NCBI RefSeq assembly: GCF_900156805.1
Contig: NZ_FTOQ01000020.1
Location: 1-51,775 of the forward strand
Length of the DNA: 51,775 bases
From: Roseivivax lentus
GTDB taxonomy: Bacteria; Pseudomonadota; Alphaproteobacteria; Rhodobacterales; Rhodobacteraceae
Reading direction: 5' to 3'
The notes under the pieces: generated by a model
Databases searched by the model: none
Seen by the model: the letters and a program-made list of their open reading frames with translations, nothing else
What the model was told of the DNA's origin: nothing
Shown: positions 12,297 through 33,558 of the stretch, piece by piece
Numbering within the stretch: position 1 is the stretch's first letter
Layout: the number at the start of each line of letters is the position of its first letter
Made by a program: the position numbers and the translations under genes

Positions 12297-13432
12297 TCTG
12301 CAGCGTTCCTTGTGACGTTCTGGTGTTCGATGATTTCTCTAATGCGGCTAGCGCCTTTGCCATCACCGTAGGGATTATGTGCGCGCGCCATGGCTTGGTA
12401 GGCGGCGTTTTCATCGAGGAGAGTGTTCACTTCGCGTACGATAACAGCGCTATCGGTACCGACGAGTTTTACGGTCCCGGCATCAACAGCCTCGGGACGC
12501 TCTGTGGTTTCCCGCATTACGAGAACAGGCTTACCAAGCGAGGGCGCTTCTTCCTGAACACCGCCAGAATCTGTCAATATGACCTCGGCCCGTCGCATGA
12601 GGTGTACAAAGGGCAGGTAATCCTGGGGCGCGATGAGATGCACATTGCCATATCCTGCCAGATGATTTTCGACGGGCCCTTTGACATTGGGGTTCAAGTG
12701 AACTGGATAGATGATCTGCAAATCCTGCCGTCCCGCCAACTTTGACAGCGCTTTGCAAATGCGTTCAAAACCGCCGCCAAAGCTTTCACGGCGATGGCCT
12801 GTCACCAGCAAAAGGCGACGCTCCGGATCGATGCCAAGCGCGCGATCGAGCTCTGCGCTTTTCTCCGGGTTGTTCTCCAACATCTCGACAACATCGATCA
12901 AAGCGTCGATGACCGTATTTCCGGTCACATGGATCATATCTGCCGATACATTCTCGCGTAAAAGGTTGTCGCGGGATCCTTCAGTTGGCGCGAAATGCAG
13001 CTGTGTAATTGCCCCCGCAATCTTGCGATTGATCTCTTCCGGCCAAGGCGAATAGATGTTGCCGGTTCGTAAACCAGCTTCCACATGCCCGACGCTAATT
13101 TGCTGATAATATGCCGCCAGAGAGGTGGCGAGTGTTGTTGTCGTATCGCCATGAACGAGCACAAGGTCAGGCTTTTCAGCCTCAAAGATGGGTTTTAAGC
13201 CCTGCAAAACGGCGCAGGTAATCTCGGTGAGACCTTGACCAGGCTTCATGAGATCGAGATCAAAATCGGGCACAATATCAAACAGCGCCAGAACTTGATC
13301 GAGCATCTCCCGATGTTGCGCTGTAACGCAGACCTTCAGATCAATGTCGGGACTTTGCGAGAGGCTGCGAATGACGGGGGCCATCTTGATCGCCTCAGGC
13401 CGTGTTCCAAAAATGCACATAACTTTTTGCAT
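12293..13432 (-). CDS. wecB: UDP-N-acetylglucosamine 2-epimerase (non-hydrolysing)
   Basis: The 379-aa enzyme interconverts UDP-GlcNAc and UDP-ManNAc. Family landmarks are all present: [13 protein letters not shown] at residues 9-21, [37 protein letters not shown], and the UDP-binding [20 protein letters not shown] block. Length is normal (about 375 aa). A GGGA element about 10 bases upstream of the ATG at 13432 can serve as ribosome binding site. It is followed by wecC with a 4-bp overlap and preceded by glmS across a 118-bp gap with no visible terminator. Confidence 0.96.
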
Positions 13433-18626: not shown

Positions 18627-18674
18627 ACAGTTTGAGAAATGCGGCGAAACCTTCGCTCCCATCAGGAAGGCGAT

Positions 18675-19202
18675 ATGAACGACGGACCGCCAGATCGCAT
18701 GCAGACCGGTCAGCCAGCGGCGCCTGTAGCGCTGGTTGATGCGCCCGCAGCGGCACCCAGTCTCGCCGAACTCGGCCTGGAGAACTTCCCGCCATATCTG
18801 ATGAACCGCATCATGGGCCGCTACAATGTCAGCCTGCGCGAGGAGATGGCGGCGCTCGGGCTCACCACGCCGCAAATGCGCGCGCTGGCGGTGCTGTCGG
18901 TCCATGACGGCCTGCTGATCCGGGAACTCGTCGTCTATGCAGTCGTCGAACAATCGACGCTGTCGCGCGCTCTCGATGCGCTCGTGAAGGCGGGGCTCGT
19001 GACCCGCACGCCTGATCCCCATGACAATCGTGCCACGCGCATGTCCATCACCGCGCCGGGGCGCGCGGCCTATGAACGGCTCTGGCCGCACATGGCCGCA
19101 TCCTGCGCGCAGATGTTCCGCGGCATCCCGCAGGCCGAGCAACAGACCTTCACCGCGACGCTGCAGAAGATGCTGCGCAACATCCGCAAACACGATTTCT
19201 GA
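18675..19202 (+). CDS. MarR-family transcriptional regulator
   Basis: The 175-aa protein has the standard MarR winged helix layout. Recognition lies about residues 60-110 (TTPQMRALAVLSVHDGLLIREL then VVEQSTLSRALDALVKAGLV), followed by the wing RTPDPHDNRATRMSITAPGRA with the conserved D-x-R motif, and dimerising helices at both ends. The ATG at 18675 is preferred over 18639 because AGGAAGG lies about 6 bases upstream. The stop is 8 bp before iorA, so it is almost certainly co-transcribed with iorAB and the TRAP genes. Its ligand is probably the aromatic or 2-oxo acid substrate of that pathway. Confidence 0.92.
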   Translation: MNDGPPDRMQTGQPAAPVALVDAPAAAPSLAELGLENFPPYLMNRIMGRYNVSLREEMAALGLTTPQMRALAVLSVHDGLLIRELVVYAVVEQSTLSRALDALVKAGLVTRTPDPHDNRATRMSITAPGRAAYERLWPHMAASCAQMFRGIPQAEQQTFTATLQKMLRNIRKHDF

Positions 19203-19210
19203 CGGGCATC

Positions 19211-21361: not shown

Positions 21362-22926
21362 ACGACGCAAGCCCGCACCTCGCGCCGCGCCCACGCGATG
21401 CCCGCGTCGACGGCATCATCAGCATCGCGATCATGGCCGTGGGCGGGCAGGGGGGCGGCGTTCTGACCGGGTGGATCGAACGGCTCGCGCGGTCGCAAGG
21501 CTACAACGTGCAGGCGACGTCGGTTGCCGGCGTGGCGCAGCGCACCGGTGCCACGATCTACTACATCGAGATGGCGCCCTCCGAGGGCGATCTGCGTCCG
21601 GTCTTTTCGCTCGCGCCGGCGCAGGGCGACGTGGATATCCTCATCGCCGCCGAGATGATGGAAGCGGGCCGCGCCATCGACCGGGGTTTCGTGACACCCG
21701 ATCGCACCACGCTCATCGCCTCGGCTCACCGGGCGCTGGCCGTCTCGGAAAAGGTCGTGCCGGGCGACGGCACCGCTGCGGCGGCGGAGGTGCAGGCCGC
21801 CGCCGAAATCGCGGCGCAGAGGCTGATCCTTGCCGATATGGAGCATCTTGCGCGCGCGCAGGGCTCGGTGATCTCCTCCTCCCTTTTCGGGGCGCTGGCC
21901 GGATCGGGCCGGTTGCCCTTCCCGCGCGCCGCCTTCGAACAGGCGATCCGCGACAGCGGCAAGGCGGTCGAGGCCTCGCTCAGCGCCTTCGCGGCCGGCT
22001 TCGACGCCGCGCAGGGAAAGACCGAGGAGACCGGCCACGACGGCGCGCAAACTCCAGATGCATCGGCGCGGGTTCCGCCCGCCTTGCGCCGCGACTGGGA
22101 GGCGCTGCAGGCGCGCCTGGCCGCCTTGCCTGCAGAGGTGACGGAGATGGCCCGGGCTGGCCTGCGCAAGGTCGTCGAGTTTCAGGATCTCGCCTACGGC
22201 GCGGCGTATCTGGCTCGGCTGGAAGACATCGCGGCCGAGGACAGCGCAGCGCACGATCACGCCTTCACCCGCGAGGCCGCGAAATACCTCGCCAATGCGA
22301 TGGCCTATGACGACGTGATCCGCGTGGCCGACCTCAAGACCCGCGCCGCGCGCTATTCGCGGATCGAAGACGAAATGGGGGCGGGCGAGGGCCGGGTGAT
22401 GCACCTGAGCGAGTACATGCACCCCCGCGCCGATGAAATCGTGGGTCTGATGCCGGAACGGCTGGGGCGGCGCCTGTCGGAAAACCCCAAGGCGATGGCG
22501 CGCATCGACTGGCTGTTCAACCGCGGGCGCAGGCTGCGCAGCGACGGAGTGCTGGCGTTCCTCGCGCTGTACACCTTGGGCGGGCTCAAGGGCTGGCGCC
22601 TGCGCACGCTGCGCCATGCGCAGGAATGGGCGCATATCGAGGATTGGCTGTCCCGCGCCAACGCCGCGCGCGCCCGGAACTACGCGCTTGGCGTCGAGGT
22701 CCTGCGGACGCGACGGCTCATAAAAGGCTATTCCGACACCCATGCGCGCGGGCTTTCCAAATACGACCGGGTGATGGACGGCATCGACCTTGTCGCCCAT
22801 CGCGAGGACGCGGCTGACTGGGCGGCCCGTCTGCGCAATGCGGCCCTCCAGGACGAAACGGGACAGGCGCTCGACGGCGCTCTGAAAACCGTGCGCAGTT
22901 TCACAGAACGCACGGACAACAACTGA
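21358..22926 (+). CDS. iorB: Indolepyruvate oxidoreductase beta-type subunit with long C-terminal extension
   Basis: The 522-aa protein carries the catalytic gamma-type domain at residues 20-215 (MAVGGQGGGVLTGWIERLA, SVAGVAQRTGATIYYIE). It is followed by a mostly helical C-terminal domain of about 300 residues of the kind annotated DUF6537 in this family. Archaeal IorB is only about 200 aa, so the extension is characteristic of the bacterial aerobic type. It forms the heteromer with IorA that reduces ferredoxin. The ATGA overlap indicates translational coupling. A 32-bp gap then leads to the TRAP binding protein. Confidence 0.9.
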   Translation: MNDASPHLAPRPRDARVDGIISIAIMAVGGQGGGVLTGWIERLARSQGYNVQATSVAGVAQRTGATIYYIEMAPSEGDLRPVFSLAPAQGDVDILIAAEMMEAGRAIDRGFVTPDRTTLIASAHRALAVSEKVVPGDGTAAAAEVQAAAEIAAQRLILADMEHLARAQGSVISSSLFGALAGSGRLPFPRAAFEQAIRDSGKAVEASLSAFAAGFDAAQGKTEETGHDGAQTPDASARVPPALRRDWEALQARLAALPAEVTEMARAGLRKVVEFQDLAYGAAYLARLEDIAAEDSAAHDHAFTREAAKYLANAMAYDDVIRVADLKTRAARYSRIEDEMGAGEGRVMHLSEYMHPRADEIVGLMPERLGRRLSENPKAMARIDWLFNRGRRLRSDGVLAFLALYTLGGLKGWRLRTLRHAQEWAHIEDWLSRANAARARNYALGVEVLRTRRLIKGYSDTHARGLSKYDRVMDGIDLVAHREDAADWAARLRNAALQDETGQALDGALKTVRSFTERTDNN

Positions 22927-22958
22927 ACCTTCGATCTCAACAGAACAGGGAGACGGAC

Positions 22959-23909
22959 ATGAAGAAGATTGCACTTGCCGCGGCGCTCGCGCTCGGCGCC
23001 ACTCCGCTCGCCGCAGAGGAAGTCCTGCGCGGCGTCACCGCCTTTGCCACCGGCACCACCTTCTCGCGGCCCTTCGAGGCCTTCATCGAGCGCGTGAATG
23101 AAACCGGCGCGGGCGTGGTGCAGATCGAATATGTGGGCGGCTCCGAGGCCATTCCGACCTTCGAGCTGGGCAACGCGGTCTCGGACGGCATCGTCGATAT
23201 CGCCAACAACACGACGGCCTTCTACACCAACCTGCTGCCCTGGGGCGACGCGCTGCACCTTGCCACCAACACAGTGCAGGACCAGCGCGCCAATGGCTGT
23301 TTCGACAAGATCGACATGCTGCATCAGCAGCAGATGAACGTGAAGTTCTTGGCGCGCACCGGCGACAACATCCAGTTCCACCTTTACCTGACAAAGCCCA
23401 TCGAGGGGCCGGACCTGTCGGGTCTGACGATCCGTACCACGCCAGTCTATCGCGGCATGTTCGAGGCGCTCGGCGCGACGCTCGTCCGCACCGCGCCTGG
23501 TGAGGTCTACACGTCGCTCGAGCGCGGCGCGATCGACGGCTATGGCTGGCCGACGCAGGGCATCCTCGATCTCGGCTGGGACGAGCAGACCAAGTATCGC
23601 GTCGATCCGGGCTTCTACCAGGTGGACGTGAACTTCCTCGTGAATCTCGACCGCTGGAACAGCCTGTCGGACGAAGCGCGCGCCGTTCTCGAAGATGCGG
23701 CAACATGGATCGAGGAGAAGAATGCCGAGAACCTCGACATCAACGCCGCCGAGCTTGCCGCGCAGGCCGAGGCCGGGATCGAGACCATCACCTTCGAGGG
23801 CGAGGCCGCCGAGACCTGGCTGGGCGCCGCGCAGCGCGAAGGCTGGGCCGGTGTCGAGGAAATCGACGCCGAAATCGCGGAAGAGCTTCGCGCCTGCCTC
23901 GTCGACTGA
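22959..23909 (+). CDS. dctP: TRAP transporter periplasmic solute-binding protein (system 1)
   Basis: The 316-aa DctP-family protein has a cleavable Sec signal (residues 1-19, MKKIALAAALALGATPLAAE). The ligand-coordinating arginine typical of carboxylate binders is R159 in LSGLTIRTTPVYRGMFEALG, followed by GEVYTSLERGAIDGYGWP. A GGGAGA site precedes the ATG. It would capture an organic acid in the periplasm. Co-location with iorAB suggests an aryl pyruvate, aryl acetate or related 2-oxo acid as ligand, but this is inference. Confidence 0.92.
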   Translation: MKKIALAAALALGATPLAAEEVLRGVTAFATGTTFSRPFEAFIERVNETGAGVVQIEYVGGSEAIPTFELGNAVSDGIVDIANNTTAFYTNLLPWGDALHLATNTVQDQRANGCFDKIDMLHQQQMNVKFLARTGDNIQFHLYLTKPIEGPDLSGLTIRTTPVYRGMFEALGATLVRTAPGEVYTSLERGAIDGYGWPTQGILDLGWDEQTKYRVDPGFYQVDVNFLVNLDRWNSLSDEARAVLEDAATWIEEKNAENLDINAAELAAQAEAGIETITFEGEAAETWLGAAQREGWAGVEEIDAEIAEELRACLVD

Positions 23910-23967
23910 CCTACCCGTCCGGGGGGCGGCCTTGCCTCCCGGACGCCTTGACGGAGCTTTCCGCCCG

Positions 23968-24450
23968 ATGTTCGACCGCATTCTCTTTGCCGCCGCGGCG
24001 CTTGCAGGCGCGATCCTTGCCGCGATCGTGCTGGCCATCTCGCTCAACGTGGTGCTGCGCAATCTCGCCGGCGCGCCGATCCACGGGCTCCTCGATCTTG
24101 TGGAATACGGCCTTCTGATCGTGACCTTCGCAGGCGCGCCCTGGGTGCTGTCCCGGAACGGGCACGTGGTGGTCGACCTGGTGACGGGGGCGCTGCCGGA
24201 ACAGACTGCAGTGACGCTCGCCCGCATCGTGGCGGTGATCGGCTGCCTGCTTTCGGCGCTCGTCGTCTATTACGCGCTTCAAGCGGTCCTCGTCTCCTAT
24301 GGGCGCGGCTCGATGATCCGCACGGCCTTCGTCGTACCGGAATGGTGGGTGCTGTCGGTCATGCCCACCTCGTTCCTGCTCATCACGGTGGAATTCGCCC
24401 GGCAGGCGCTGAACCCGCCTGTGCGCAGCACCGAAAAGACGGGGCTCTGA
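23968..24450 (+). CDS. dctQ: TRAP transporter small permease (system 1)
   Basis: The 160-aa protein has four membrane helices, with the DctQ signature NVVLRNLAGAPIHGLLDLVEYGLLIVTFAG near residues 27-57 and a second pair near 75-150. DctQ anchors and couples the binding protein to the large permease DctM. The ATG at 23968 matches the family start; a CGGAG element lies 12 bases upstream. It is separated by 58 bp from dctP and 3 bp from dctM. Confidence 0.9.
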   Translation: MFDRILFAAAALAGAILAAIVLAISLNVVLRNLAGAPIHGLLDLVEYGLLIVTFAGAPWVLSRNGHVVVDLVTGALPEQTAVTLARIVAVIGCLLSALVVYYALQAVLVSYGRGSMIRTAFVVPEWWVLSVMPTSFLLITVEFARQALNPPVRSTEKTGL

Positions 24451-24453
24451 GCG

Positions 24454-25767
24454 ATGGATTGGCCGCTTCTTCTGACGCTCATGCTGAGCGGCCTTGCCGT
24501 TCTGCTGCTCATGGGCATGCCGGTGGCCTTCGCCTTCCTGGCGGTCACGGTGTTCGGTGCGATCGAAGTTCTGGGTGGCGAACGCGGGCTCGTTCAGCTG
24601 GCGCGCAACGGCACGCAGGCGATGACGAATTTCCAGCTCGCGCCGATCCCGCTTTTCATCCTGATGGGCGAGATCCTGTTTCAGACCGGCGTCGCGCACC
24701 GCGCCATCGACGCGGTGGACCGGGTCGTCACGCGCATCCCCGGGCGGCTGTCGGTCGTGACGGTCTTCGGCGGTACGATCTTCGCCGCATTGTCAGGCTC
24801 GACCATCGCGAACACGGCGATGTTGGGCTCCACGCTGCTGCCGGGCATGCTCAAGAAAGGATACGCGCCGACGCTGGCCATCGGGCCGATCATGGCCTCG
24901 GGCGCCATCGCCATGCTGATCCCGCCTTCGGCCTTGGCCGTGCTCGTGGGCAGCCTCGCCGGCATTTCCATTTCCGGCCTGCTGCTGGCGGGCGTCCTGC
25001 CGGCGCTCATCCTTGCATTCCTGTTCGTCACCTGGATCGTCGTGCGGGTCACGCTTTCGCCTGAAATGGCACCCCCGGACGCGACCGAAGAGATGAGCCT
25101 CGCCGAGCGCTGGCGCCCCTTCATGGTCTATGTGCTGCCACTGGCCTCCATCTTCGTGGTGGTGATCGGATCGCTGATGTCCGGCCTCGCCACCCCGACC
25201 GAAAGCGCGGCCCTCGGCTGCATCGCCGCGGTTCTGGTCGGGGCCGGATATCGCGCCCTTTCCGCCGAAAGGCTGATGGTTGCCATCATGGAGACGGTGA
25301 AGCTGTCGGTCATGATCCTGTTCATCATCATGACTTCGCAGACCTTCGCGCAGGTCCTGAGCTTCTCCGGCGCGACCGGCGGGATCGTGCGCGCGATCGA
25401 GGGCTATCAGCTTGGTCCGCTGGGCGTTCTCATGGGCATGATCCTGCTGCTTCTGCTGCTGGGATGCTTCGTCGATCAGGTCAGCATGCTGATGATCACC
25501 GTGCCGATCTTCGTTCCGCTCGCCAATGCCGCCGGGATCGACCCGCTGATCCTGGGCGTGGTCTACCTGCTGACCATGGAAATCGGCTTGCTGACGCCAC
25601 CCTTCGGGCTCTTGCTGTTCGTGATGCGGGGCGTCGCGCCGCCCGAGATCGGGATCAAGACGATCTACGCGGCGGCCCTGCCTTACGTGACCATGAAGCT
25701 CTTCGTGCTGGCGGGCATCGTGACGCTGCCGTGGCTGGCGACGTGGCTGCCAGGTTTGCTGAAGTGA
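24454..25767 (+). CDS. dctM: TRAP transporter large permease (system 1)
   Basis: The 437-aa protein has about 12 membrane helices and the DctM signatures GMPVAFAFLAVTVFGAIE at the N-terminus, NFQLAPIPLFILMGEILFQTG, SGSTIANTAMLGSTLLPGM and GALAMLIPPSALAVLVG-type loops. It catalyses Na+-coupled uptake of the ligand delivered by DctP. It is the last gene of the plus-strand operon and converges on the second TRAP operon with 99 bp between the stop codons. Confidence 0.94.
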   Translation: MDWPLLLTLMLSGLAVLLLMGMPVAFAFLAVTVFGAIEVLGGERGLVQLARNGTQAMTNFQLAPIPLFILMGEILFQTGVAHRAIDAVDRVVTRIPGRLSVVTVFGGTIFAALSGSTIANTAMLGSTLLPGMLKKGYAPTLAIGPIMASGAIAMLIPPSALAVLVGSLAGISISGLLLAGVLPALILAFLFVTWIVVRVTLSPEMAPPDATEEMSLAERWRPFMVYVLPLASIFVVVIGSLMSGLATPTESAALGCIAAVLVGAGYRALSAERLMVAIMETVKLSVMILFIIMTSQTFAQVLSFSGATGGIVRAIEGYQLGPLGVLMGMILLLLLLGCFVDQVSMLMITVPIFVPLANAAGIDPLILGVVYLLTMEIGLLTPPFGLLLFVMRGVAPPEIGIKTIYAAALPYVTMKLFVLAGIVTLPWLATWLPGLLK

Positions 25768-25866: not shown

Positions 25867-26928
25867 TTACTGGATGTCCGCCGCGATCTGCGCGTCGATC
25901 TCTTCCTCGGCGGCGGCCACGCTTTCACGCAACGCCTCGAGCACCTCCGGGCCACCTTCGACATTCGACGCGAACCAGTCGTAGACCGGCTGGACCGCCT
26001 CGGAGAAGGCCGCCATCTCTTCGGGGGTGGGCACGTAGATCTCGCCGCCCGCATCGCTGAAGGCCTGATAGGCTGCCAGCTGCTTGCGCTTGGGCGAGGC
26101 GAAGGTAGCCTGCTGCAGCTCGTTGAAGCCGTTGACCACGACGCGCTTCAGATCGTCCGGCATGGACTGGAAACGCTCGTTGTTCATCACCCAGATCGCC
26201 GCCATGTAGGCATGGCCGTCGAGCGTGAGGTACTTCAGCCCGGCATCGGTGAACTTCATGTTCATGATGTCGGTGACGCCGTTCTTGGTGCCTTCCACGA
26301 CGCCCGTCTGCAGCGAGGTGAAGAGCTCGGGCCACGGGATCGGCGTGGGCGAGCCGCCCAGCGTTTTCACCAGCTCCTGCGGCAGATCGGCGACCACGGT
26401 GCGCATCTTCATGCCTTCGAGGTCGGAGGGCTGCGCGATGCGCTTCTGGGTGTTCGCGAAGTTGCGCCAGCCGCCGGTGTTGCCGATGGTCATGATGCGG
26501 ATCGCGCCGCCCGAATTCTCGAGCGCCATGTCGCGCAGGGTGCGGGTGAAGGTGCCGTTGGTCAGTACCGCCTCGGCCACGCGGTCGTCGCGCATCAGGT
26601 AAGGCAGATCGAAGACCTGCACGTAGGGAAAGATGCCCGCGGCGCCGCCCGAGGTCGTCACGAAGATGTCGATGGAGCCGTCCGCCACGCCCTGCAGGCA
26701 CTCGGTGCCGTTGCCGCAAAGCTGCGTGCCGATGAAGAGCTCCACCGCGATGGCGCCGTTCGATGCTTTCTCGACGTAGTCCTTGAAGATCACGAGGCCG
26801 TCGTAATCCTCGTCCTGGTCGTTCGACGTGGCCGTCGCGCGCAAGGTGTAGTCCTGCGCCGTGGCCATGCCCGCCGATGCGGCAAGCACGGCTGCGGCCG
26901 CCAGCGTTGCAAAGGTCTTTTTCAGCAT
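25867..26928 (-). CDS. dctP: TRAP transporter periplasmic solute-binding protein (system 2)
   Basis: The 353-aa DctP-family protein has a Sec signal ending near residue 24 (AASAGMATAQ). The conserved arginine is R176 in DLEGMKMRTV, followed by IPWPELFTSLQTGVVEGTKNG. GGGAGGAAAAG immediately upstream fixes the ATG at 26928. This is the last gene of an operon that starts with a sulfonate-type flavin monooxygenase. Its ligand is therefore more likely a sulfonate, such as sulfoquinovose or its glyceryl glycoside, than a simple carboxylate. The DctM gene lies 29 bp upstream. Confidence 0.92.
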   Translation of the reverse strand: MLKKTFATLAAAAVLAASAGMATAQDYTLRATATSNDQDEDYDGLVIFKDYVEKASNGAIAVELFIGTQLCGNGTECLQGVADGSIDIFVTTSGGAAGIFPYVQVFDLPYLMRDDRVAEAVLTNGTFTRTLRDMALENSGGAIRIMTIGNTGGWRNFANTQKRIAQPSDLEGMKMRTVVADLPQELVKTLGGSPTPIPWPELFTSLQTGVVEGTKNGVTDIMNMKFTDAGLKYLTLDGHAYMAAIWVMNNERFQSMPDDLKRVVVNGFNELQQATFASPKRKQLAAYQAFSDAGGEIYVPTPEEMAAFSEAVQPVYDWFASNVEGGPEVLEALRESVAAAEEEIDAQIAADIQ

Positions 26929-26957
26929 CTTTTCCTCCCTGGATTTTCTTATGCTGG

Positions 26958-28433
26958 TTAATTCACGAACCCCGCGAGCCGCGGAATGGTGAGCGATATG
27001 GCGGGGACATAGGTGATCAGCATGATCACCAGCACCTCCACCGCAAGGAATGGCAGGATCGCCCTGGAGATCGTCTCGACCTTCTCGCCCGAGACCGACG
27101 ACGCCACGAAAAGAACGAGCCCCATCGGAGGCGTGGCAAGGCCAACGGTCAGGTTGACGCTCATGATGATGGCGAAATGCACCGGATCGACGCCGAGCGA
27201 GGTAAAGACCGGGCCGAGGATCGGCCCCAGAATGATGATCGCAGGGCCCGCATCGAGGAACATGCCCACGATGAACAACAGGATGTTGATCAGGAACAGC
27301 AAGGTCAGCGGGTTTTCCGACAGCGACAGGATGAACTCGGCCAGTATTTCGGGCGCGTGCGACAGGCTCACAACGGTCTTGAACGACACCGCGGCGCCCA
27401 CCAGCAGAAGCACGGTGGCCGACGCCATGGCCGAGCGTTTCAGCACATCGACAAGGTCCTTGCCGGACATCACGCCGAGCACGCCGAACGAGATGATAAG
27501 CGCGTAAAGCACTGCGATCGCCGCCGCTTCGGTCGGGGTGAAGACGCCCAGGAGGATGCCGCCCAGGATGATGATCGGGGTCTGCAATGGCGCCACAGCC
27601 TTCTTGCAGACAACGCGGAAATCGGGATCGACGCGGGTGCGATAGAACATCAGCAGGAAATGCGCGGGGATCAGCAGGCCGATGTAAAGCGGCAGACCGC
27701 TTGCTGCAGCACCCAGCGGCAGAAACCCCGCGAGCAGGTAGAACACACCCGCGAGGTTGAGCCGCAGCAGAAGGAAGCTCACCCAGTATTCCACCGGCTT
27801 CAGCTCCGCCCCGCGCTCCACGATCCGTTCGGCCTTGGGCAGGTCGTACCTGTCCGCCATCACCCGCACCATGATCATCAGGCCGACACCGACGAGGATG
27901 CCCGGCACGATGCCCGCGAGAAACAGCGCGGCGACGGATTGGCCCATCACATAGGCGTAGATGATCATGATGCCCGAGGGCGGAATGATAGGCCCGATCA
28001 CCGACGAGGCCGCGGTAATCGCCGCCGCGAAGCGCCGGGTATAGCCCTGCTTCTCCATCGCCGGGATGAGCGTCGAGCCGAGCGCCGAGGTATCCGCCAC
28101 GGCCGAGCCCGAGAGCCCGGCGAAGAGAATCGAGGACAGGATGTTCACATGCGCGAGCCCGCCGCGCAGATGGCCCATGAAGGCTTGGCTGAACTGCACC
28201 AGCCGTTCGGTGATGCCGCCACGGTTCATCACCTCGCCCGCGAGCAGGAAGAAGGGCAGGGCCATCAGCGGAAAGCTGTCCATGCCGTTGTAGAGGTTGC
28301 GATAGAGCAGGGCGAGGTCGCGCTCCTGCCCGTTCAGCCACAGTAGAATGCCGGGCGCGAACAGCAGTGCGAAGAACACCGGCAGGCCGATCATCAGGAA
28401 GACGAGGAAGACCGGCAGGAACCAGACCAGCAT
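26958..28433 (-). CDS. dctM: TRAP transporter large permease (system 2)
   Basis: The 491-aa protein shows the DctM pattern: an N-terminal MIGLPVFFALLFAPGILLWL, NGMDSFPLMALPFFLLAGEVMNRGG, SGSAVADTSALGSTLIPAMEKQGY and SSVIGPIIPPSGIMIIYAYV. It is about 50 residues longer than the first DctM; the extra length falls in the middle loop around residues 180-260 (RVMADRYDLPKAER…), a known variation of the family. It begins exactly at the end of dctQ, with its ATG next to the TAG of the upstream gene. Confidence 0.94.
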   Translation of the reverse strand: MLVWFLPVFLVFLMIGLPVFFALLFAPGILLWLNGQERDLALLYRNLYNGMDSFPLMALPFFLLAGEVMNRGGITERLVQFSQAFMGHLRGGLAHVNILSSILFAGLSGSAVADTSALGSTLIPAMEKQGYTRRFAAAITAASSVIGPIIPPSGIMIIYAYVMGQSVAALFLAGIVPGILVGVGLMIMVRVMADRYDLPKAERIVERGAELKPVEYWVSFLLLRLNLAGVFYLLAGFLPLGAAASGLPLYIGLLIPAHFLLMFYRTRVDPDFRVVCKKAVAPLQTPIIILGGILLGVFTPTEAAAIAVLYALIISFGVLGVMSGKDLVDVLKRSAMASATVLLLVGAAVSFKTVVSLSHAPEILAEFILSLSENPLTLLFLINILLFIVGMFLDAGPAIIILGPILGPVFTSLGVDPVHFAIIMSVNLTVGLATPPMGLVLFVASSVSGEKVETISRAILPFLAVEVLVIMLITYVPAISLTIPRLAGFVN

Positions 28434-29021
28434 CTATTCGGCCTCCGGCAGATCGGTATGCGACAGCGGCGGCAGCCCCTCGGCGCGGCCCGCGATCATC
28501 AGGATGCGGCGCAGGATCAGCTCCACGTTGACGATGGTCATCAGCACCATGCCGACGAGGATCGACATGTACATCCAGGCGAGCTTGATCTTGACGCTCG
28601 TCCCGCCGACGAGGTCGAGCGGCAGGCGCAGCGAGGAGGAGGCGAAGAGCCAGCCGGAATTGACGTGGTTCAAGCCCAGCTGGATGCCCATCAGCAGCAC
28701 GGTCATAGCCACGCCAAGCAGCACGAGGATGATGATGTCGGCCACGCGGCGGGGCAGGGCCTCGGTCAGCATGTCGATGGCCACGAAGCCGCCCGCGCGT
28801 AGGCCCGACGGCGCGGCAAGGCCCGTCATCCACAGCATCAGGAAGCGCGCGGCCTCATCGGGCCAGGGCAGGGCGTTGTTCAGCACGTAGCGAAACCAGA
28901 CCTGCGCGAGGATCACCGCCACCATGAACGCCAGCGCCACGATGGCCAGACCCCGGCCCAGCCACAGCACCCAGTCGTTCCAGAGCTGGATCGGGAGCAA
29001 TATTCCCCGAATGAGCTGCAA
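28434..29021 (-). CDS. dctQ: TRAP transporter small permease (system 2), probable TTG start
   Basis: The 195-aa protein has four membrane helices and the DctQ signature AQVWFRYVLNNALPWPDEAARFLMLWMTGLAAP. The TTG at 29021 is chosen because GGGAGGAG lies 7 bases upstream at ideal spacing. An ATG at 29045 in the same frame would place that ribosome site inside the coding sequence and add an arginine-rich leader atypical of the family. The gene is 60 bp downstream of the flavin reductase stop and abuts dctM. Confidence 0.87.
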   Translation of the reverse strand: MQLIRGILLPIQLWNDWVLWLGRGLAIVALAFMVAVILAQVWFRYVLNNALPWPDEAARFLMLWMTGLAAPSGLRAGGFVAIDMLTEALPRRVADIIILVLLGVAMTVLLMGIQLGLNHVNSGWLFASSSLRLPLDLVGGTSVKIKLAWMYMSILVGMVLMTIVNVELILRRILMIAGRAEGLPPLSHTDLPEAE

Positions 29022-29081
29022 TGATCGTCTCCTCCCTCGCCGCATCGTTGGCGGCTGCCCGTTGACCGGGCGTTCCCGTAC

Positions 29082-29597
29082 CTAACGTGCTGCGAAACCT
29101 CCCAGCTGTCCATTCAGGAATAACAGCGGGCTCCCCTCCCGCCGGGTCACCTGCGTGACCTCGCCGACGACGATGGCGTGATCGCCGCCGTCATGCACCG
29201 CGTGGCGCGTGCATTCGTAGCGCGCCAGCGCCTGTTCGATCACCGGGATGCCGGTGTCGCCGGTGCGCAGGACGTCCGGGCCGAGGGCGCGCCCGTCGCG
29301 CGCCACCGCGTGGCACAGATCGCCCTGATCCTCGGCGAGAACATGGATCGCGTAGCGGGTGCATTCGGTGAAAGGGGCAAACCGCTTGGACGCGCGGGCG
29401 GGCGACCAAAGCACCAGTGGCGGGTCGAGCGACAGGGACGCGAAGCTGTTCGCGGTGATCGCGAGCGGGCCGTCGGGCGTGTCGGTGGTGACGATGGTGA
29501 CCCCGGTCGCGAATTGCCCCAGCGCATCGCGAAAGGCGCGCTGGGTCTCGGGGCCCGGCACGAAGGTCTGCGTCTCGAAGGGCGTGGCATCGCCCAT
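29082..29597 (-). CDS. smoA: Flavin reductase of a two-component monooxygenase (SmoA-like)
   Basis: The 171-aa split-barrel flavin reductase would use NAD(P)H to supply reduced FMN to the monooxygenase two genes upstream. The domain reads FRDALGQFATGVTIVTT, then ITANSFASLSLDPPLVLWSPA (flavin-binding loop), and HAIVVGEVTQV with the conserved GEV motif. The start MGDATPFETQTF at 29597 overlaps the aldo/keto reductase stop as TGATG. Being encoded with an SsuD-like monooxygenase and an aldo/keto reductase makes a SmoA role likely. By fold alone it could serve any such monooxygenase. Confidence 0.85.
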   Translation of the reverse strand: MGDATPFETQTFVPGPETQRAFRDALGQFATGVTIVTTDTPDGPLAITANSFASLSLDPPLVLWSPARASKRFAPFTECTRYAIHVLAEDQGDLCHAVARDGRALGPDVLRTGDTGIPVIEQALARYECTRHAVHDGGDHAIVVGEVTQVTRREGSPLLFLNGQLGGFAAR

Positions 29598-30493
29598 CAA
29601 GGCACCTCGTGACCAAGCGCGAGCGTATAAAGCTCGAACCAGGTCTCGCGGTCGAGCTCGACCTTTTCCGCATCGCCCAGCGACGCGATCCGCTCGATGT
29701 TGTTCGTGCCCATGACCGGCAGGATCCCCGAGGGATGCCGCAGCAGCCACGCCACCGCGACGGCGGCCGCATCGACGCCCTGCGCTTTGGCGATCGCCTC
29801 GAGCGCCTTGCGCAACCGCGCCGAGCTCTCGGCGAAAAGCGAGCCGCCGCCCAGCGGCGACCACGCCATCGGCGCGATGCCGCGTTCCTGCAGGAAGGCC
29901 ACGTCACCGTTGGTGAAGCCGTGATGCGCCAGCAGCGACAGCTCGATCTGGTTCGTCACAAGCGGTGTCTTCATCGCCGATTGCAGAAGCGTCCAGTCAT
30001 GCGGCTTGAAATTCGACACGCCCAGATGCGCGACCTTGCCCGAGGCGACGACCTCGTCCAGCGCAGCGCCTGTTTCATGGTGATCCATCAGCGGATCGGG
30101 ACGGTGGATCAGCAGAAGGTCGATCTGCTCAATCCCCATCAGCGTCAGCGAGTGATCCACCGAGGCCAGTATATGATCGCGGGAGGTGTCGTAGTGCTTC
30201 ACGCGCTTGTCGGCATAGCGCCCTGCCGGTGCCACGATATCGCATTTGGTGACGATCTCGATCCGCTCGCGCAGGTCGGTGCCGCGCAGGGCATGGCCGA
30301 GAACCGCCTCGGCCTCGTAGCCGCCGTAGATATCGGCCTGATCCATCGTCGTGATGCCCTGATCGAGGCAGGCCTCGATCTTGGCGCGCACATGCCCCGG
30401 CGAGGTGTCGTTGTCGTCGGACAGCCGCCACATCCCGTAGACGATGCGGGACAGGGCCAGATTGTCCGTCAGCGCGACGCGGCTCACACTCAT
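29597..30493 (-). CDS. smoB: Aldo/keto reductase (SmoB-like)
   Basis: The 298-aa TIM-barrel NAD(P)H-dependent oxidoreductase has a complete catalytic tetrad: D51 and Y56 in DQADIYGGYE, K83 in VTKCD, and H130 in LLLIHRPD. The C-terminal cofactor region AWLLRHPSGILPVMGTNNIERI is typical of the YdhF/AKR-type proteins. In the sulfoquinovose monooxygenase route SmoB reduces 6-oxo-glucose to glucose. The ATG at 30493 overlaps the monooxygenase stop by ATGA and the flavin reductase start overlaps its own stop, so the three are tightly coupled. Confidence 0.82.
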   Translation of the reverse strand: MSVSRVALTDNLALSRIVYGMWRLSDDNDTSPGHVRAKIEACLDQGITTMDQADIYGGYEAEAVLGHALRGTDLRERIEIVTKCDIVAPAGRYADKRVKHYDTSRDHILASVDHSLTLMGIEQIDLLLIHRPDPLMDHHETGAALDEVVASGKVAHLGVSNFKPHDWTLLQSAMKTPLVTNQIELSLLAHHGFTNGDVAFLQERGIAPMAWSPLGGGSLFAESSARLRKALEAIAKAQGVDAAAVAVAWLLRHPSGILPVMGTNNIERIASLGDAEKVELDRETWFELYTLALGHEVP

Positions 30494-31647
30494 TTGCGCT
30501 CTCCTTCGCCCAGGGGCGTGTTCGGGGTCGATGTCGGCACCCGACCATAGATTTCGGGCAGCGAACAGGTGTTCAGCTGCGGAAGCACTTTCTGACCGAA
30601 TTGGCGGCATTCGTCGAGATGCGGATAACCCGAGAAGATGAACGCCCGCATGCCCATTTTCCTGTACGTCTCGATCTTCGACATGACCTGATCGACCGAT
30701 CCGACAAGGGCCGCGCCGCATCCCGACCGCGCCCGGCCGACGCCTGTCCAGAGCCCGGGCTCCACATAGCCGTATTGGTCAGCCAATTCGCGCGCCCGGG
30801 CCTGGTGGCTGACGCCGAGCGAGATCGAATCGTGCGCCCGGTCGCGGATCAGCTTGCCGTATTCGTCATCGAGCTTCGAGACGATGTAATCCGCGTATTC
30901 GCGCGCCTCGGCCTCGGTGTCGCGCACGATCATGTGCACCCGCAGCCCGTAATCGAGCGTTCGGCCATAGCGTTCGGCCACCGCGTTCACCGCGCGCATG
31001 CGCTCGGCCAGCTGCTCTTCGGGTTCGGGCCACATCAGGTAGAGGTCGCAATGCTGCCCGCAAAGCTCCAGCGCCTGCGGGGAATAGCCGCCGAAATACA
31101 GAAGCGGCCCGCCATTCTGCTGGTAGGGTTTCGCGGGATCGGTCCAGACATCCTTGAACTGGTAGACCTCGCCCCCGTAGTCGATCTTGTCGCGGGTCCA
31201 GGCCTGCTTGAGGATTTCCACCACTTCGCGCGAGCGCTGGTAGCGAAAGGCGCTGTCGGCGGTCTCTCCGGGGAAATCCGACGAGATGACGTTGAGCGTG
31301 AGCCGCCCCTTCATCATGTGGTCGATGGTGGCGATGGTGCGCGCCAGCATGATCGGCTGCATCTCGCCGCAGCGGATCGCCGCCAGCATGTTGATCTCGC
31401 TGGTCACCTGGCTGCCCGCCGCGACGAAGGACAAGACGTCCTGTCCGACCTGGTAGGAGGACGGACACAGGATGTTGCGGAAGCCCTGGCGCTCGGCCTC
31501 TTTCAGGATCGAGGAGCAGTGCTCCCAGCTCGACCGGAGGCGGCCTTCGGGCACGCCGAGGAACTGGTAATCATCCGAGCAGAGCGCGGCGAACCAGGAC
31601 ACCTCGGCGGCATCGAGATCGGCGGAGGTGACGGGAACGACGGTCAT
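30490..31647 (-). CDS. smoC: SsuD-like FMN-dependent sulfonate monooxygenase (SmoC-like)
   Basis: The 385-aa bacterial luciferase-like monooxygenase is closest in character to alkanesulfonate monooxygenase SsuD. Active-site equivalents are present: R236 and H238 in YGLRVHMIVRDT, and Y341 and H343 in FIFSGYPHLD, besides LYFGGYSPQALEL and the LWTGVGRARSGCGAALVG flexible loop. Such enzymes use reduced FMN and O2 to release sulfite from a C-S bond. First in an operon with an AKR, a flavin reductase and a transporter, it matches SmoC, which desulfonates sulfoquinovose. Another sulfonate substrate is possible. It is divergent from the GntR gene. Confidence 0.82.
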   Translation of the reverse strand: MTVVPVTSADLDAAEVSWFAALCSDDYQFLGVPEGRLRSSWEHCSSILKEAERQGFRNILCPSSYQVGQDVLSFVAAGSQVTSEINMLAAIRCGEMQPIMLARTIATIDHMMKGRLTLNVISSDFPGETADSAFRYQRSREVVEILKQAWTRDKIDYGGEVYQFKDVWTDPAKPYQQNGGPLLYFGGYSPQALELCGQHCDLYLMWPEPEEQLAERMRAVNAVAERYGRTLDYGLRVHMIVRDTEAEAREYADYIVSKLDDEYGKLIRDRAHDSISLGVSHQARARELADQYGYVEPGLWTGVGRARSGCGAALVGSVDQVMSKIETYRKMGMRAFIFSGYPHLDECRQFGQKVLPQLNTCSLPEIYGRVPTSTPNTPLGEGERK

Positions 31648-31706
31648 GGCGGGCCTCGGAATGGGGGCGGGACAGGGGGCGAATTTGCCCCTTGCGTAGC
31701 ATCGTC

Positions 31707-31722
31707 ATTGATGTGCATCAAT
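31707..31722. promoter_or_regulatory. Palindrome in the smoC-gntR divergent promoter region
   Basis: A perfect palindrome with arms ATTGAT and ATCAAT around GTGC lies in the 108-bp gap between the two divergent genes, 60 bp from the smoC-like start and 34 bp from the GntR start. A further half-site ATCAAT follows at about 31728-31733. The position and symmetry fit a GntR-family operator that controls both operons. Confidence 0.6.
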
Positions 31723-31755
31723 AGTATATCAATTTCCGTAGCATTGCCGAGGCGC

Positions 31756-32457
31756 ATGCCAGACGAAACCGCTCTTCCCCGCTATCTGCAGGTGGCCGAG
31801 ACGCTGATCCGCGACATCGCGGCGGGCCGGCTCGCTGATGGTGCGCGGCTGCCGCCGGAGCGCGACATGGCCGCCGCGATGGACATCTCCGTGGGCACCC
31901 TGCGCAAGGCGCTCGCGCGTCTGCAGGAGGCGGGGTTGCTCGACCGGGTGCAGGGATCGGGCAATTACGTGCGCCGCGCCCCGCAGGAGCTGGGCATCTA
32001 CGCCTTCTTTCGGATCGAACGGATCGACGGTGGCGGCCTGCCCACCGCCGAGCTCATCTCCGTCGACCGTCGTGCCAAGGATACCGGCATGCCGGATTTC
32101 GGAACGAGCGACGCGGCGCACCGCATCCGCCGTCTGCGCCGTGTGGGCGGCATCCCCGCAGTGCTCGAGGAGATCTGGCTCGACGGCGACGTGACCCCGG
32201 AACTCGACCGATCCGAGATGTCGGAATCGCTCTACCTCTATTACCGCGATGCGCTCGGCCTCGTCATCACCCGCGCCGAAGACCGGGTCGGGGTCGGCGC
32301 GGTGCCCGCCTGGGTGGTGCCCGAGGCCACGCTCGATCCCGGCAGCATCGCCGGTTTCATCGAGCGGGTCAGCCAGGACGCGGGCGGCGCTGCGGTGGAA
32401 TATTCACGCACCTGGTTCGACAGCCGGCATGTCCGCTATGTCGCGCGTCTCAGGTAG
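31756..32457 (+). CDS. GntR/HutC-family transcriptional regulator with UTRA domain
   Basis: The 233-aa regulator has an N-terminal GntR winged helix (residues 6-75: YLQVAETLIRDIAAGRLADG, RLPPERDMAAAMDISVGTLR, GSGNYVRR) and a C-terminal UTRA ligand-binding domain (about 90-230, ending VEYSRTWFDSRHVRYVARLR). UTRA domains often sense sugars or sugar phosphates, so a sulfo-sugar inducer is plausible. The ATG at 31756 has GAGG close upstream; an ATG 16 codons earlier is a weaker option. It is divergent from the smoC-like operon and 18 bp ahead of the Gfo/Idh/MocA gene. Confidence 0.92.
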   Translation: MPDETALPRYLQVAETLIRDIAAGRLADGARLPPERDMAAAMDISVGTLRKALARLQEAGLLDRVQGSGNYVRRAPQELGIYAFFRIERIDGGGLPTAELISVDRRAKDTGMPDFGTSDAAHRIRRLRRVGGIPAVLEEIWLDGDVTPELDRSEMSESLYLYYRDALGLVITRAEDRVGVGAVPAWVVPEATLDPGSIAGFIERVSQDAGGAAVEYSRTWFDSRHVRYVARLR

Positions 32458-32475
32458 GACAAGGACCTCGAAAGC

Positions 32476-33558
32476 ATGATCAATTACGGCATCATCGGCG
32501 CCGGCATGATGGGGCAGGAGCATATCCGCAACATCCAGCTTCTGGGCGATGCCCGCGTCGATGCCATCATGGAGCCGGATCTCGAGCAGCGCGGCCGCGC
32601 GGGGGCCATCGCGCCTGACGCTGTCATGGTCGACAGCGTGCGCGACCTGCTCGCGCGGCAAAGCGTGGACGTGCTGCTGATTGCCAGCCCCAACCACCTG
32701 CATGTCCGCCAGATGGAGGAGATCGCGGCGATCCGGCCGCTGCCGCTTCTGGTGGAAAAGCCGCTGTTCGTAATGCCCGAGGAAAGCGCGCGCATCGCCG
32801 ATCTGGCCGCGCGCTATCCCGCGCCGATCTGGGTCGCGATGGAATACCGATACATGCCGCCCATCGCCATGATGCTGGAGCGGCTGGAGGCCGCGACGGG
32901 CGGCCTGCGCATGCTGACGATCCGCGAACACCGCTTTCCGTTCCTCGACAAGGTGGGCGCGTGGAACCGCTTCAACGCCTCCTCGGGCGGCACGCTGGTG
33001 GAGAAATGCTGCCATTTCTTCGACCTCATGCGCCTTGCGACCGGCGCGGAGCCGGTGCGCGTCATGGCCTCGGGCGGGCAGGCCGTGAACCATCTGAACG
33101 AGGTCTATGACGGCCACGTCCCCGATATCTGGGACAATGCCTATGTCATCGTCGATTTCGACAGCGGCATGCGCGCGATGCTGGAATTGTGCATGTTCGC
33201 CGAAGGCTCGAGATACCAGGAGCATCTGAGCGCGGTGGGCCCCACCGGCAAGATCGAGGCGCTGGTCCCGGGCCCCACGCGTTTCTGGCCCGAGCGCCTC
33301 GGCGCGCCGCCGGTGCCGCAGGTCGTGCTCAGCCCGCGCGACGGGACCGGCGAACAGGTCCTCGACGTGCCGGTTGATCCGACGCTTCTCGATGCGGGCG
33401 ATCACAACGGATCGACCTTCTACCAGCACCGGAAATTCCTGGCCGCGGTGCAGTCCGGCGGACCGGTGGAGGTGTCGCTTGCCGACGGTGCGAAAGCCGT
33501 GGCGATGGGGCTCGCCGCGCAGAAATCTGCGGAAACGGGCGAGGCCGTGCGCCTTTAG
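32476..33558 (+). CDS. Gfo/Idh/MocA-family NAD-dependent enzyme, candidate sulfoquinovosidase or sugar dehydrogenase
   Basis: The 360-aa protein has an N-terminal Rossmann domain (YGIIGAGMMGQEHIRNI at residues 4-20) and the EKP signature at 94-96 (LLVEKPLF). The substrate domain has MEYRYMPPIAMML and the catalytic H180/D183 in VEKCCHFFDLMR. Members oxidise sugars or, in one group (GH188, SqgA), hydrolyse sulfoquinovosides through a transient NAD redox step. Placement with a GntR regulator opposite a SmoC-type operon makes the latter attractive, but the sequence alone cannot separate it from a simple sugar dehydrogenase. The ATG follows AAGGA about 10 bases upstream. Confidence 0.75.
   Translation: MINYGIIGAGMMGQEHIRNIQLLGDARVDAIMEPDLEQRGRAGAIAPDAVMVDSVRDLLARQSVDVLLIASPNHLHVRQMEEIAAIRPLPLLVEKPLFVMPEESARIADLAARYPAPIWVAMEYRYMPPIAMMLERLEAATGGLRMLTIREHRFPFLDKVGAWNRFNASSGGTLVEKCCHFFDLMRLATGAEPVRVMASGGQAVNHLNEVYDGHVPDIWDNAYVIVDFDSGMRAMLELCMFAEGSRYQEHLSAVGPTGKIEALVPGPTRFWPERLGAPPVPQVVLSPRDGTGEQVLDVPVDPTLLDAGDHNGSTFYQHRKFLAAVQSGGPVEVSLADGAKAVAMGLAAQKSAETGEAVRL

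Follow-up and report, generated by a model that had tools for sequence, protein, structure and literature searches.

Sulfoquinovose (SQ) is a sulfur-containing sugar of plants and algae. About 10 billion tons of it are produced each year (PMC10755693), and roseobacters are among the reported marine users of SQ (PMC13372026). A locus of Roseivivax lentus, located in a window of 51,775 nucleotides (contig NZ_FTOQ01000020.1), raises the question of whether SQ or one of its glycosides is imported and desulfonated there by a single genetic unit, and by which transporter. The following features were identified in this locus:

25867–26928, minus strand: DctP, periplasmic solute-binding protein (PF03480, 195 bits; signal-peptide-like N terminus)
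26958–28433, minus strand: DctM, large TRAP membrane subunit (PF06808, 374 bits; TIGR00786, 402 bits, above the cut-off)
28434–29045, minus strand: DctQ, small TRAP membrane subunit (PF04290, 77 bits)
29082–29597, minus strand: SmoA, probable flavin reductase by family and position (PF01613, 122 bits)
29597–30493, minus strand: SmoB, predicted aldo/keto reductase for 6-oxo-glucose (PF00248, 180 bits; similarity to PDB 7bbz)
30490–31647, minus strand: SmoC, predicted FMNH2-dependent sulfoquinovose monooxygenase of 385 amino acids (PF00296, 178 bits; similarity to PDB 7oh2 and 7olf)
31687–31736, minus strand: conserved candidate promoter/operator block, roughly AAATTGATAYACYATTGAT.YACATCAA...GATGCTACGCAAG (seed repeat and matrix scan)
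31756–32457, plus strand: GntR-family regulator with a UTRA sensor domain (PF00392, 64 bits; PF07702, 74 bits)
32476–33558, plus strand: homologue of GH188 NAD+-dependent sulfoquinovosidases with a Gfo/Idh/MocA fold (GFO_IDH_MocA domain; PDB matches 8zn9, 8qc2 and 8qc3)

Gene order and the predicted desulfonation enzymes

Six tightly packed genes, in the order SmoC, SmoB, SmoA, DctQ, DctM and DctP, occupy positions 31647–25867 of the minus strand, and the genes for the GntR/UTRA regulator and the Gfo/Idh/MocA protein diverge from them on the plus strand. SmoC and SmoB overlap in the sequence ATGA and SmoB and SmoA in TGATG, SmoA and DctQ are separated by only 36 bases, DctM abuts DctQ, and the ATG of DctP is preceded by GGAGG. 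The layout of the original prediction, in which a monooxygenase, an aldo/keto reductase and a flavin reductase overlap in one operon with a complete TRAP system, opposite a UTRA regulator and a Gfo/Idh/MocA gene, was confirmed, with PF03480, PF04290 and PF06808 all present and both opposite genes identified by their Pfam domains. A survey of the best 80 of at least 576 SmoC loci, with counts uncorrected for relatedness, recovered the same gene order in all 46 loci that carry the TRAP system, and the arrangement is therefore not due to chance; DctP was not found in one of these loci (L074), where the contig stops. GH188 and UTRA genes are each present in 44 of the 46. That the arrangement is widespread was not recognised in the original prediction.

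SmoC is identical to PDB 7oh2 at 305 of 384 residues (79%, 715 bits) and to PDB 7olf at 301 of 384 (706 bits), both of which we take to be SmoC chains. SsuD (1nqk, 1m41) belongs to the same luciferase-like superfamily, but SmoC shares only 120 of 356 aligned residues with 1nqk (34%, 187 bits). At the columns of the SsuD active site, W, R, H, R and Y are kept, and the cysteine column is occupied by glycine. An operon for an alkanesulfonate (SsuD-type), NTA-type or dimethylsulfone monooxygenase, unrelated to SQ, might be suggested by the NCBIfam search, in which SsuD and then SfnG gave the best-scoring models. Both scores lie far below their cut-offs, however (TIGR03565, 232 bits against 518; SfnG, 150 against 383), and an NtaA-type chain reaches 30 bits against the 715 and 706 of the SmoC chains. 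In addition to the gap between 79% and 34% identity and the replaced cysteine, neither SmoB nor GH188 is known to take part in such chemistry, and we regard this alternative as extremely improbable. Grouping of the monooxygenase with SsuD or NtaA, named in the original prediction as an outcome that would speak against it, does not occur as judged by pairwise score, and assignment to the SmoC type, distinct from SsuD, is supported by these comparisons.

SmoB is identical to PDB 7bbz at 198 of 295 residues (67%, 433 bits), and the next group of PDB chains (YdhF-like and others) scores 231–240 bits. The best NCBIfam model for SmoA is FerA, at 194 bits, under the cut-off of 260; its family and position suggest that SmoA probably feeds FMNH2 to SmoC. 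The predicted SmoC/SmoB/SmoA trio of the sulfo-SMO pathway is thus supported, for SmoC and SmoB by similarity and for SmoA by family and position only. In PMC13372026, a genome is scored as sulfo-SMO-positive on SmoB plus SmoC; both are encoded here by overlapping genes, with the PF01613 flavin reductase in the same operon. Agrobacterium tumefaciens and Novosphingobium aromaticivorans have a sulfo-SMO (sulfo-ASMO) pathway that shares SmoC, SmoB and the flavin reductase with R. lentus, whose SmoC and SmoB are closely similar to the solved sequences; the chemistry of the pathway is reviewed in PMC9594981 and PMC12890257.

The GH188 homologue and the regulator

The Gfo/Idh/MocA protein matches PDB 8zn9 (520 bits, 65% identity), 8qc2 (366 bits) and 8qc3 (358 bits, 49%), with the next match at 57 bits. 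Assignment as an inositol dehydrogenase was rejected, since the IolG model scores 101 bits, well short of its cut-off of 355, compared with 358–520 bits for the three GH188-like chains. The original prediction named the Gfo/Idh/MocA family but missed the sulfoquinovosidase (GH188) identity. Eight checked residues known from the published complex with SQ are conserved (K95, Y124, R153, L157, K159, E176, H180 and H310). Among these, R153, L157 and K159 correspond to the sulfonate triad R166, L170 and K172 of ArSqgA (PMC10755693, PMC11465081), and K95, Y124, E176, H180 and H310 to its substrate or catalytic residues K107, Y136, E189, H193 and H321. A ninth GH188 residue is named as Glu163 in PMC10755693; when the numbering is shifted as for the remaining eight, ArSqgA has V at position 163 (R150 here) and E at position 164 (E151 here), and the published number is probably a slip. 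The SqgA proteins of Arthrobacter and Flavobacterium (PMC10755693) resemble the R. lentus protein in these eight residues and in the 49% identity to 8qc3, but the R. lentus gene lies outside an Arthrobacter-type sulfo-EMP cluster and its product is nearer to 8zn9.

The combination of sulfo-SMO with GH188 in roseobacters is already published, GH188 being near-universal in roseobacter sulfo-SMO clusters (PMC10755693). The gateway sulfoquinovosidase of the pathway is represented here by the GH188 homologue, and a search for GH31 across the genome found none. The sulfoquinovosidase of A. tumefaciens, from which R. lentus differs by its GH188 enzyme, is a GH31 enzyme. In the R. lentus homologue the Rossmann motif has no signal-peptide-like stretch before it; because GH188 requires NAD+ and this copy begins at the Rossmann fold, the enzyme is very probably cytoplasmic and would depend on an imported glycoside.

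The regulator, of the GntR/UTRA type, also differs from those of sulfo-SMO in A. tumefaciens and N. aromaticivorans. The block at 31687–31736, which contains ATTGATG-CA-CATCAAT in R. lentus, is its probable operator. The upstream regions of 73 loci and of the window were compared, and 67 of these 74 contain its seed repeat; the matrix score in the window is 75.6, with the next site at −12, a value that is partly high by construction because the matrix was built from these same regions.

Distribution and predicted cargo of the TRAP transporter

A. tumefaciens imports sulfoquinovosyl glycerol (SQGro) by an ABC transporter, in place of which the R. lentus locus has a TRAP system. The best 80 of at least 576 SmoC loci comprise 46 with TRAP, 20 with an ABC system, 14 with neither and none with both; the 14 with neither indicate that the pathway can do without TRAP, although three of them end within 1.3 kb downstream. 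A close DctP is encoded elsewhere in 3 of the 34 SmoC genomes that lack TRAP in the locus, and 2 of the 46 TRAP genomes encode a protein related to the binding protein of the L045 ABC system (E≤1e-60). The ABC system lies directly behind SmoB in L039, L040 and L045 only, and is farther off or on the other strand in the other 17 ABC loci. Among the ABC loci scanned for the operator block, seven have their ABC genes elsewhere than directly behind SmoB: six of these (L018, L024, L052, L006, L068 and L071) have a single block, before SmoC, L080 also carries a second, weak block (11 bits) immediately ahead of the UTRA gene, and none of the seven has one before the ABC genes. Because of this gene position and block placement, substitution of ABC for TRAP is firmest for the three loci and weaker elsewhere. 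Assignment of these ABC systems to the SmoF type of Agrobacterium was considered. The binding protein of L065 has one PDB match at E≤1e-10 (Lmo0181, 46 bits) and none to a SmoF-labelled chain at that threshold, and these ABC systems are therefore called only SBP_bac_1-type.

Among 198 genomes of the family (kinship uncorrected), a close DctP was found in 72 and GH188 in 104; 70 of the 72 also encode GH188 and 54 SmoC, and 62 of the 72 close DctP genes have GH188 no more than 9 kb away. The neighbouring unrelated DctP of the window (22959–23909) served as a control: its orthologues (at least 68%) occur in 7 genomes, and GH188 is present in 3 of these, counting the genome of the window itself. 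Of the 18 genomes with DctP but no SmoC, 13 carry beside the TRAP genes a GH188 gene together with genes for a kinase and an isomerase-like protein, and 12 of the 13 an aldolase gene as well; the remaining 5 have partial SQ genes or none beside TRAP. The gene families of this cluster were assigned by Pfam in L119 only, where the kinase finds its best PDB match in sulfofructose kinase, at 188 bits against 170 for the next chain, and the isomerase-like protein has no PDB match at E≤0.001. The aldolase scores 317 bits for DUF2090, 143 for the tagatose-bisphosphate type and 63 for YihT; being nearer to the first two than to YihT, it leaves "sulfo-EMP-like" as a label drawn from the gene set. The presence of the same TRAP beside sulfo-SMO and sulfo-EMP-like clusters points to a shared substrate, namely SQ or its glycerol glycoside. 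The suggestion that a TRAP system here serves a sulfosugar thus gained independent genomic support from co-occurrence and the two-pathway context, the substrate itself being predicted.

The AlphaFold model of DctP (pLDDT 82, pTM 0.81) has the fold of a TRAP binding protein. Its ligand pocket is not readable, because the solved DctP structures among 50 fold matches listed are at most 25% identical to it and residues 179–203 are of low confidence. R152, presumably the equivalent of the ligand-anchoring R147 of SiaP, is conserved without exception in an alignment of 31 DctP sequences and in all 11 members of a wider set. Among the fold matches listed, the closest solved structures include the sialic-acid-binding SiaP and the isethionate-binding IseP (PDB 8t9t, 8te9), which shares the fold (TM-score 0.82) and provides a precedent for a sulfonate ligand, but is 23% identical to DctP and binds a much smaller ligand.

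These folds, the organic acids that are the usual ligands of TRAP binding proteins, and the 34 of the best 80 SmoC loci (of at least 576) without TRAP would fit a transporter that merely shares the sulfo-SMO operon and imports another compound, such as a sugar acid, a C4-dicarboxylate or an isethionate-like short sulfonate. This is very unlikely in view of the two different SQ-type clusters beside the same TRAP, the GH188 genes of nearly all genomes with a close DctP, the mutual exclusion of TRAP and ABC in those loci and the short interval between SmoA and DctQ. The prediction retained is that DctP binds SQ and/or SQGro. A variant, overlapping with it in probability and in our estimate unlikely, holds that only free SQ is imported and that GH188 has a different substrate or serves glycosides arriving by another route; SQ is smaller and nearer to the usual TRAP ligands. 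Roseobacters have been argued to use free SQ only (PMC10755693), but the very probable cytoplasmic location of GH188 calls for an imported glycoside, and GH188 accompanies the close DctP more often than SmoC does (70 against 54 of 72 genomes).

Proposed route and its implications

Taken together, gene families, similarity, conserved residues, synteny, the replacement pattern and cross-pathway association make it highly likely that the locus is a complete uptake-and-desulfonation unit for SQ glycosides; we infer the enzyme activities from homologues, and the transport substrate, sodium coupling, regulation and sulfite fate are likewise predictions. SQGro and/or SQ would be captured in the periplasm by DctP and imported through DctQM, presumably coupled to sodium, and SQGro would be cleaved in the cytoplasm by the GH188 enzyme with catalytic NAD+. 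With FMN reduced by SmoA, SmoC would convert SQ, FMNH2 and O2 to sulfite and 6-oxo-glucose, which SmoB would reduce to glucose. The UTRA regulator probably acts on the conserved 50-bp block to control both divergent units, and its putative ligand is an SQ compound.

No paper assigning a TRAP importer to SQ was found in the literature searched, which did not extend to a 2023 roseobacter study. In the part of the listed matches that was examined, "trap" in sulfoquinovose papers refers to ion trap, trap column or trapping only, and the two listed sources in which sulfoquinovose and DctP terms co-occur (PMC10507020, PMC6386719) concern taurine. On balance, we favour the view that the TRAP clade (DctP orthologues of at least 66% identity) is a dedicated SQGro importer. 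Together with GH188 it would form a portable uptake-and-release cartridge that serves two or more unrelated SQ pathways (sulfo-SMO and the sulfo-EMP-like one), and in Rhodobacterales and Rhizobiales it would repeatedly have supplanted other importers or given way to them. This view predicts uptake of the glycoside, beyond free SQ, and a clade that marks SQ use in two pathways would provide a transport marker for metagenomes. TRAP looks like a widespread candidate route for bacterial SQ uptake; if the view above is true, one of the most abundant organosulfur compounds would enter cells by ion-driven transport, and the clade might be the first TRAP transporter known for a sugar glycoside.

Organisation of the predicted sulfo-SMO operon and the facing GH188 gene

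The genome around the window comprises 4.44 Mb in 46 contigs. In the window, six packed genes on the reverse strand are faced by two genes on the forward strand, with a conserved block between them:

31647 to 25867, reverse strand: monooxygenase, aldo/keto reductase, flavin reductase, DctQ, DctM and DctP (gene calls and families)
31687-31736: conserved block (75.6 bits; next site -12; the window is among the source sequences of the matrix)
31756-32457, forward strand: GntR/UTRA regulator (domain families)
32476-33558, forward strand: Gfo/Idh/MocA protein, a GH188 homologue (domain family)

The predicted operon of the three enzymes with a complete TRAP importer (DctQ, DctM and DctP), opposed by a UTRA-type regulator and a Gfo/Idh/MocA enzyme, was thus recovered in full. 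Start and stop codons overlap among the first three genes, DctM abuts DctQ, and the divergent unit lies 108 bases from the start of the monooxygenase gene. The block between the two units spans about 45 bases, and its seed repeat was found in 67 of the 74 upstream regions that face a divergent UTRA gene, those of 73 loci plus the window's own; its consensus is roughly AAATTGATAYACYATTGAT.YACATCAA, then GATGCTACGCAAG, and it probably comprises a promoter and the UTRA operator. Convergent with the operon, at 18639-25767 on the forward strand, are a MarR regulator, two genes that we take to be of the indolepyruvate-ferredoxin-oxidoreductase kind (one with a TPP domain, the other with POR and DUF6537) and a second, unrelated TRAP importer, a set that hints at an aromatic or keto acid as the imported compound.

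The monooxygenase shares 305 of 384 residues with PDB entry 7oh2 and 301 of 384 with 7olf, both presumably SmoC and labeled alkanesulfonate monooxygenase and methanesulfonate sulfonatase in the PDB, versus 120 of 356 with SsuD (1nqk), and the SsuD model scores 232 bits against a cut-off of 518, in agreement with the proposed SmoC-type enzyme distinct from SsuD. Of the residues in the SsuD site, whose roles we assume, the aligned protein keeps the tryptophan (W206), two arginines (R236 and R307), the histidine (H238) and the tyrosine (Y341), and the column of the SsuD cysteine holds a glycine. Among the best 80 of at least 576 SmoC relatives, the nearest are from Roseivivax (90% identity). The aldo/keto reductase, likewise assigned correctly, shares 198 of 295 residues with 7bbz, presumably SmoB (433 bits; next group 240 bits and below), and the flavin reductase is a putative SmoA by family and position. 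At one SmoC locus, L055, the SmoC-SmoB pair is directly followed, on the opposite strand, by a gene for glucokinase (12053-12991; PF02685, 235 bits), which fits glucose as the pathway product.

The original prediction placed the Gfo/Idh/MocA enzyme correctly in its family and position but overlooked its GH188 identity: three PDB entries match it at 520, 366 and 358 bits, and all others at 57 bits or less. PMC10755693 describes 8qc2 and 8qc3 as GH188 NAD+-dependent sulfoquinovosidases and names K107, Y136, R166, L170, K172, E189, H193 and H321 around sulfoquinovose (SQ) or its sulfonate; all eight are kept in the aligned window protein, as K95, Y124, R153, L157, K159, E176, H180 and H310. A ninth residue named there, Glu163, falls off the shared numbering, since ArSqgA has V at that position and E in the next column, which corresponds to E151 of the window protein. 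The same sulfonate triad is given as a mark of the family in PMC11465081. Neither a match to the GH31 family (PF01055) nor a second close GH188 (next matches 22–30% identity) was found in the window's genome; a glycosidase, a sulfonate-cleaving enzyme and an aldehyde reductase are therefore encoded together in the window. Because no signal-peptide-like stretch was seen in the GH188 protein and the family needs NAD+, the enzyme is very probably cytoplasmic, and the glycoside would therefore have to be imported, which favours sulfoquinovosyl glycerol over free SQ alone as the TRAP substrate. GH188 has been reported in roseobacter sulfo-SMO clusters, and such clusters are drawn, in the same source (PMC10755693).

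Importers at SmoC loci and in the family's genomes

A search of genome contigs returned at least 576 SmoC relatives, of which the best 80 (79–90% identity, close relatives only) were used; TRAP was called by DctM, and ABC by an SBP_bac_1-type system anywhere in the fetched stretch. These 80 loci comprise 46 with TRAP, 20 with ABC, none with both and 14 with neither, three of the last (L030, L041 and L061) having less than 1.3 kb of contig downstream. GH188 is present in 77 (TRAP 44/46, ABC 19/20, neither 14/14). A close DctP was found elsewhere in three of the 34 non-TRAP genomes (66–74% identity), a further one with a 40% DctP being left out of this count, and relatives of the ABC binding protein of locus L045 (39 and 45%; E ≤ 1e-60) occur in two of the 46 TRAP genomes. 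On the midpoint-rooted SmoC tree, with bootstrap values not yet settled, the TRAP label changes 12 times (at least seven forced by supported branches) and the ABC label 10 times (at least five forced); the importer has therefore been gained, lost or swapped repeatedly. The locus of Roseivivax sediminis (L004), a close relative, carries SmoCBA and GH188 without TRAP or a recognised UTRA gene, and no close DctP was found elsewhere in that genome.

Of 198 genomes sampled from the family to which the window belongs, 88 have SmoC (E ≤ 1e-120), 74 have DctP (E ≤ 1e-60) and 104 have GH188 (E ≤ 1e-70). DctP identity splits into at least 66% in 72 genomes and at most 50% in two (G149 and G010), which were left out of the close-DctP counts. 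GH188 accompanies close DctP in 70 of the 72 genomes and SmoC in 54 (Fisher p 1e-24 and 6e-11, respectively, uncorrected for kinship); GH188 lies within 9 kb of DctP on one contig in 62, on another contig in eight, and is absent from two (G048 and G094). The second DctP of the window (22959-23909), used as a control, matched in 15 of the 198 genomes at E ≤ 1e-60, seven of them at 68% identity or more, and three of these seven, including the window's own, have GH188, about the background of 104/198. The TRAP importer very probably belongs to the SQ system.

Sulfo-EMP-like clusters that share the TRAP importer

Surroundings were fetched for all 18 cases with DctP and without SmoC and for the two distant-DctP cases. 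The TRAP genes have GH188, an isomerase-like gene and a kinase gene of the PfkB type as neighbours in 13 of these 18 cases, with an aldolase in 12 of the 13, a mutarotase in seven and an aldehyde dehydrogenase in seven, as traced by tblastn with the proteins of one such locus, L119, from which alone Pfam families were taken. The L119 kinase best matches sulfofructose kinase in the PDB (188 bits; next 170), the aldolase is nearer the DUF2090 type (317 bits) and the tagatose-bisphosphate type (143) than YihT (63), and no PDB entry matches the isomerase-like protein; hence, the cluster is termed sulfo-EMP-like. No L119-type kinase, aldolase, isomerase, mutarotase or DeoR was found at E ≤ 1e-15 in the best 80 SmoC loci. 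The two kinds of cluster differ after SQ release and both carry GH188 and TRAP, which points to a common substrate, SQ or its glycoside.

Among the remaining five loci, L124 (G040) keeps SmoB, SmoA, UTRA and GH188 and lacks only SmoC, L129 (G126) keeps SmoB and SmoA with SmoC alone missing among the enzymes, L113 (G048) keeps only SmoA, SmoC and SmoB being missing, and L116 (G143) keeps GH188 and UTRA without SmoC, SmoB or SmoA; decay, or a substitute enzyme elsewhere in the genome, is possible in these four. None of the tested SQ genes lies beside the TRAP genes of L123. In L131 (G149), the DctP encoded at 9614-10663 (49–50% identity) retains the C47/C53 pair; a gene for a PfkB-type kinase lies some 8 kb away, and this DctP possibly serves a TRAP importer for another sulfosugar or sugar acid.

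Accompanying genes, the binding protein and significance

A di-haem cytochrome c peroxidase/MauG-family gene (e.g., L033:16437; family from L033 only) lies near the SQ-linked TRAP in 18 of 46 TRAP SmoC loci, 1 of 34 non-TRAP loci and 13 of the 18 loci with DctP but not SmoC; it occurs in both SMO and sulfo-EMP-like clusters and almost never without TRAP in these loci. A PhyH-family dioxygenase gene, 54–62% identical to two query copies, was found near TRAP in eight loci (L125:8912-9604, L123:4132-4878, L128:12724 and SmoC loci L021, L031, L046, L060 and L063; weak matches of 25–28% in L067 and L074 were left out), and the lipid or sugar might be a substrate of its product, either ahead of uptake or afterwards. 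Downstream in 11 of the 46 TRAP loci (e.g., L044:15724-16800), and also in L004:12578-13600 and L057, is a YeiH-like PF03601 gene, presumably a “putative sulfate exporter,” which fits export of sulfite or sulfate; the only copy in the window's genome is on another contig. A protein with a Mo-co dimerisation domain (PF03404), encoded on another contig of that genome (G000:C15:13193-13552), could complete the oxidation of sulfite as a candidate sulfite dehydrogenase.

The N terminus of DctP, read by eye, is signal-peptide-like, and its fairly confident predicted model (pLDDT 82, pTM 0.81) has the TRAP-binding-protein fold. It matches the isethionate-binding IseP (TM 0.82, 23% identity) and 4p47 (TM 0.86, 25%); identity does not exceed 25% in any of the 50 fold matches listed. 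R131, R152, N192 and the C47/C53 pair are invariant in 31 aligned DctPs (the window's and 30 of 42 gene-called from SmoC loci); no ligand pocket is claimed, because the model has low confidence over most of residues 179-203.

No literature joining sulfoquinovose, monooxygenase and TRAP transporter was found by our searches, the one paper that pairs sulfoquinovose with a TRAP transporter being on taurine, and a word search of two reviews (PMC9594981 and PMC12890257) and a 2026 aquatic survey (PMC13372026) gave no mention of TRAP. An assignment of TRAP to SQ uptake was not found in the literature searched, although Liu et al. (2023), on roseobacters, may name a transporter. The chemistry is already known; within that literature, what is new is the type of importer. 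The central proposal of a sulfo-SMO operon with a TRAP importer holds, and GH188 and the cross-pathway TRAP clade extend it: the window is predicted to encode a full route that takes SQ glycosides from import to glucose, and the TRAP clade appears to mark SQ use across pathways.
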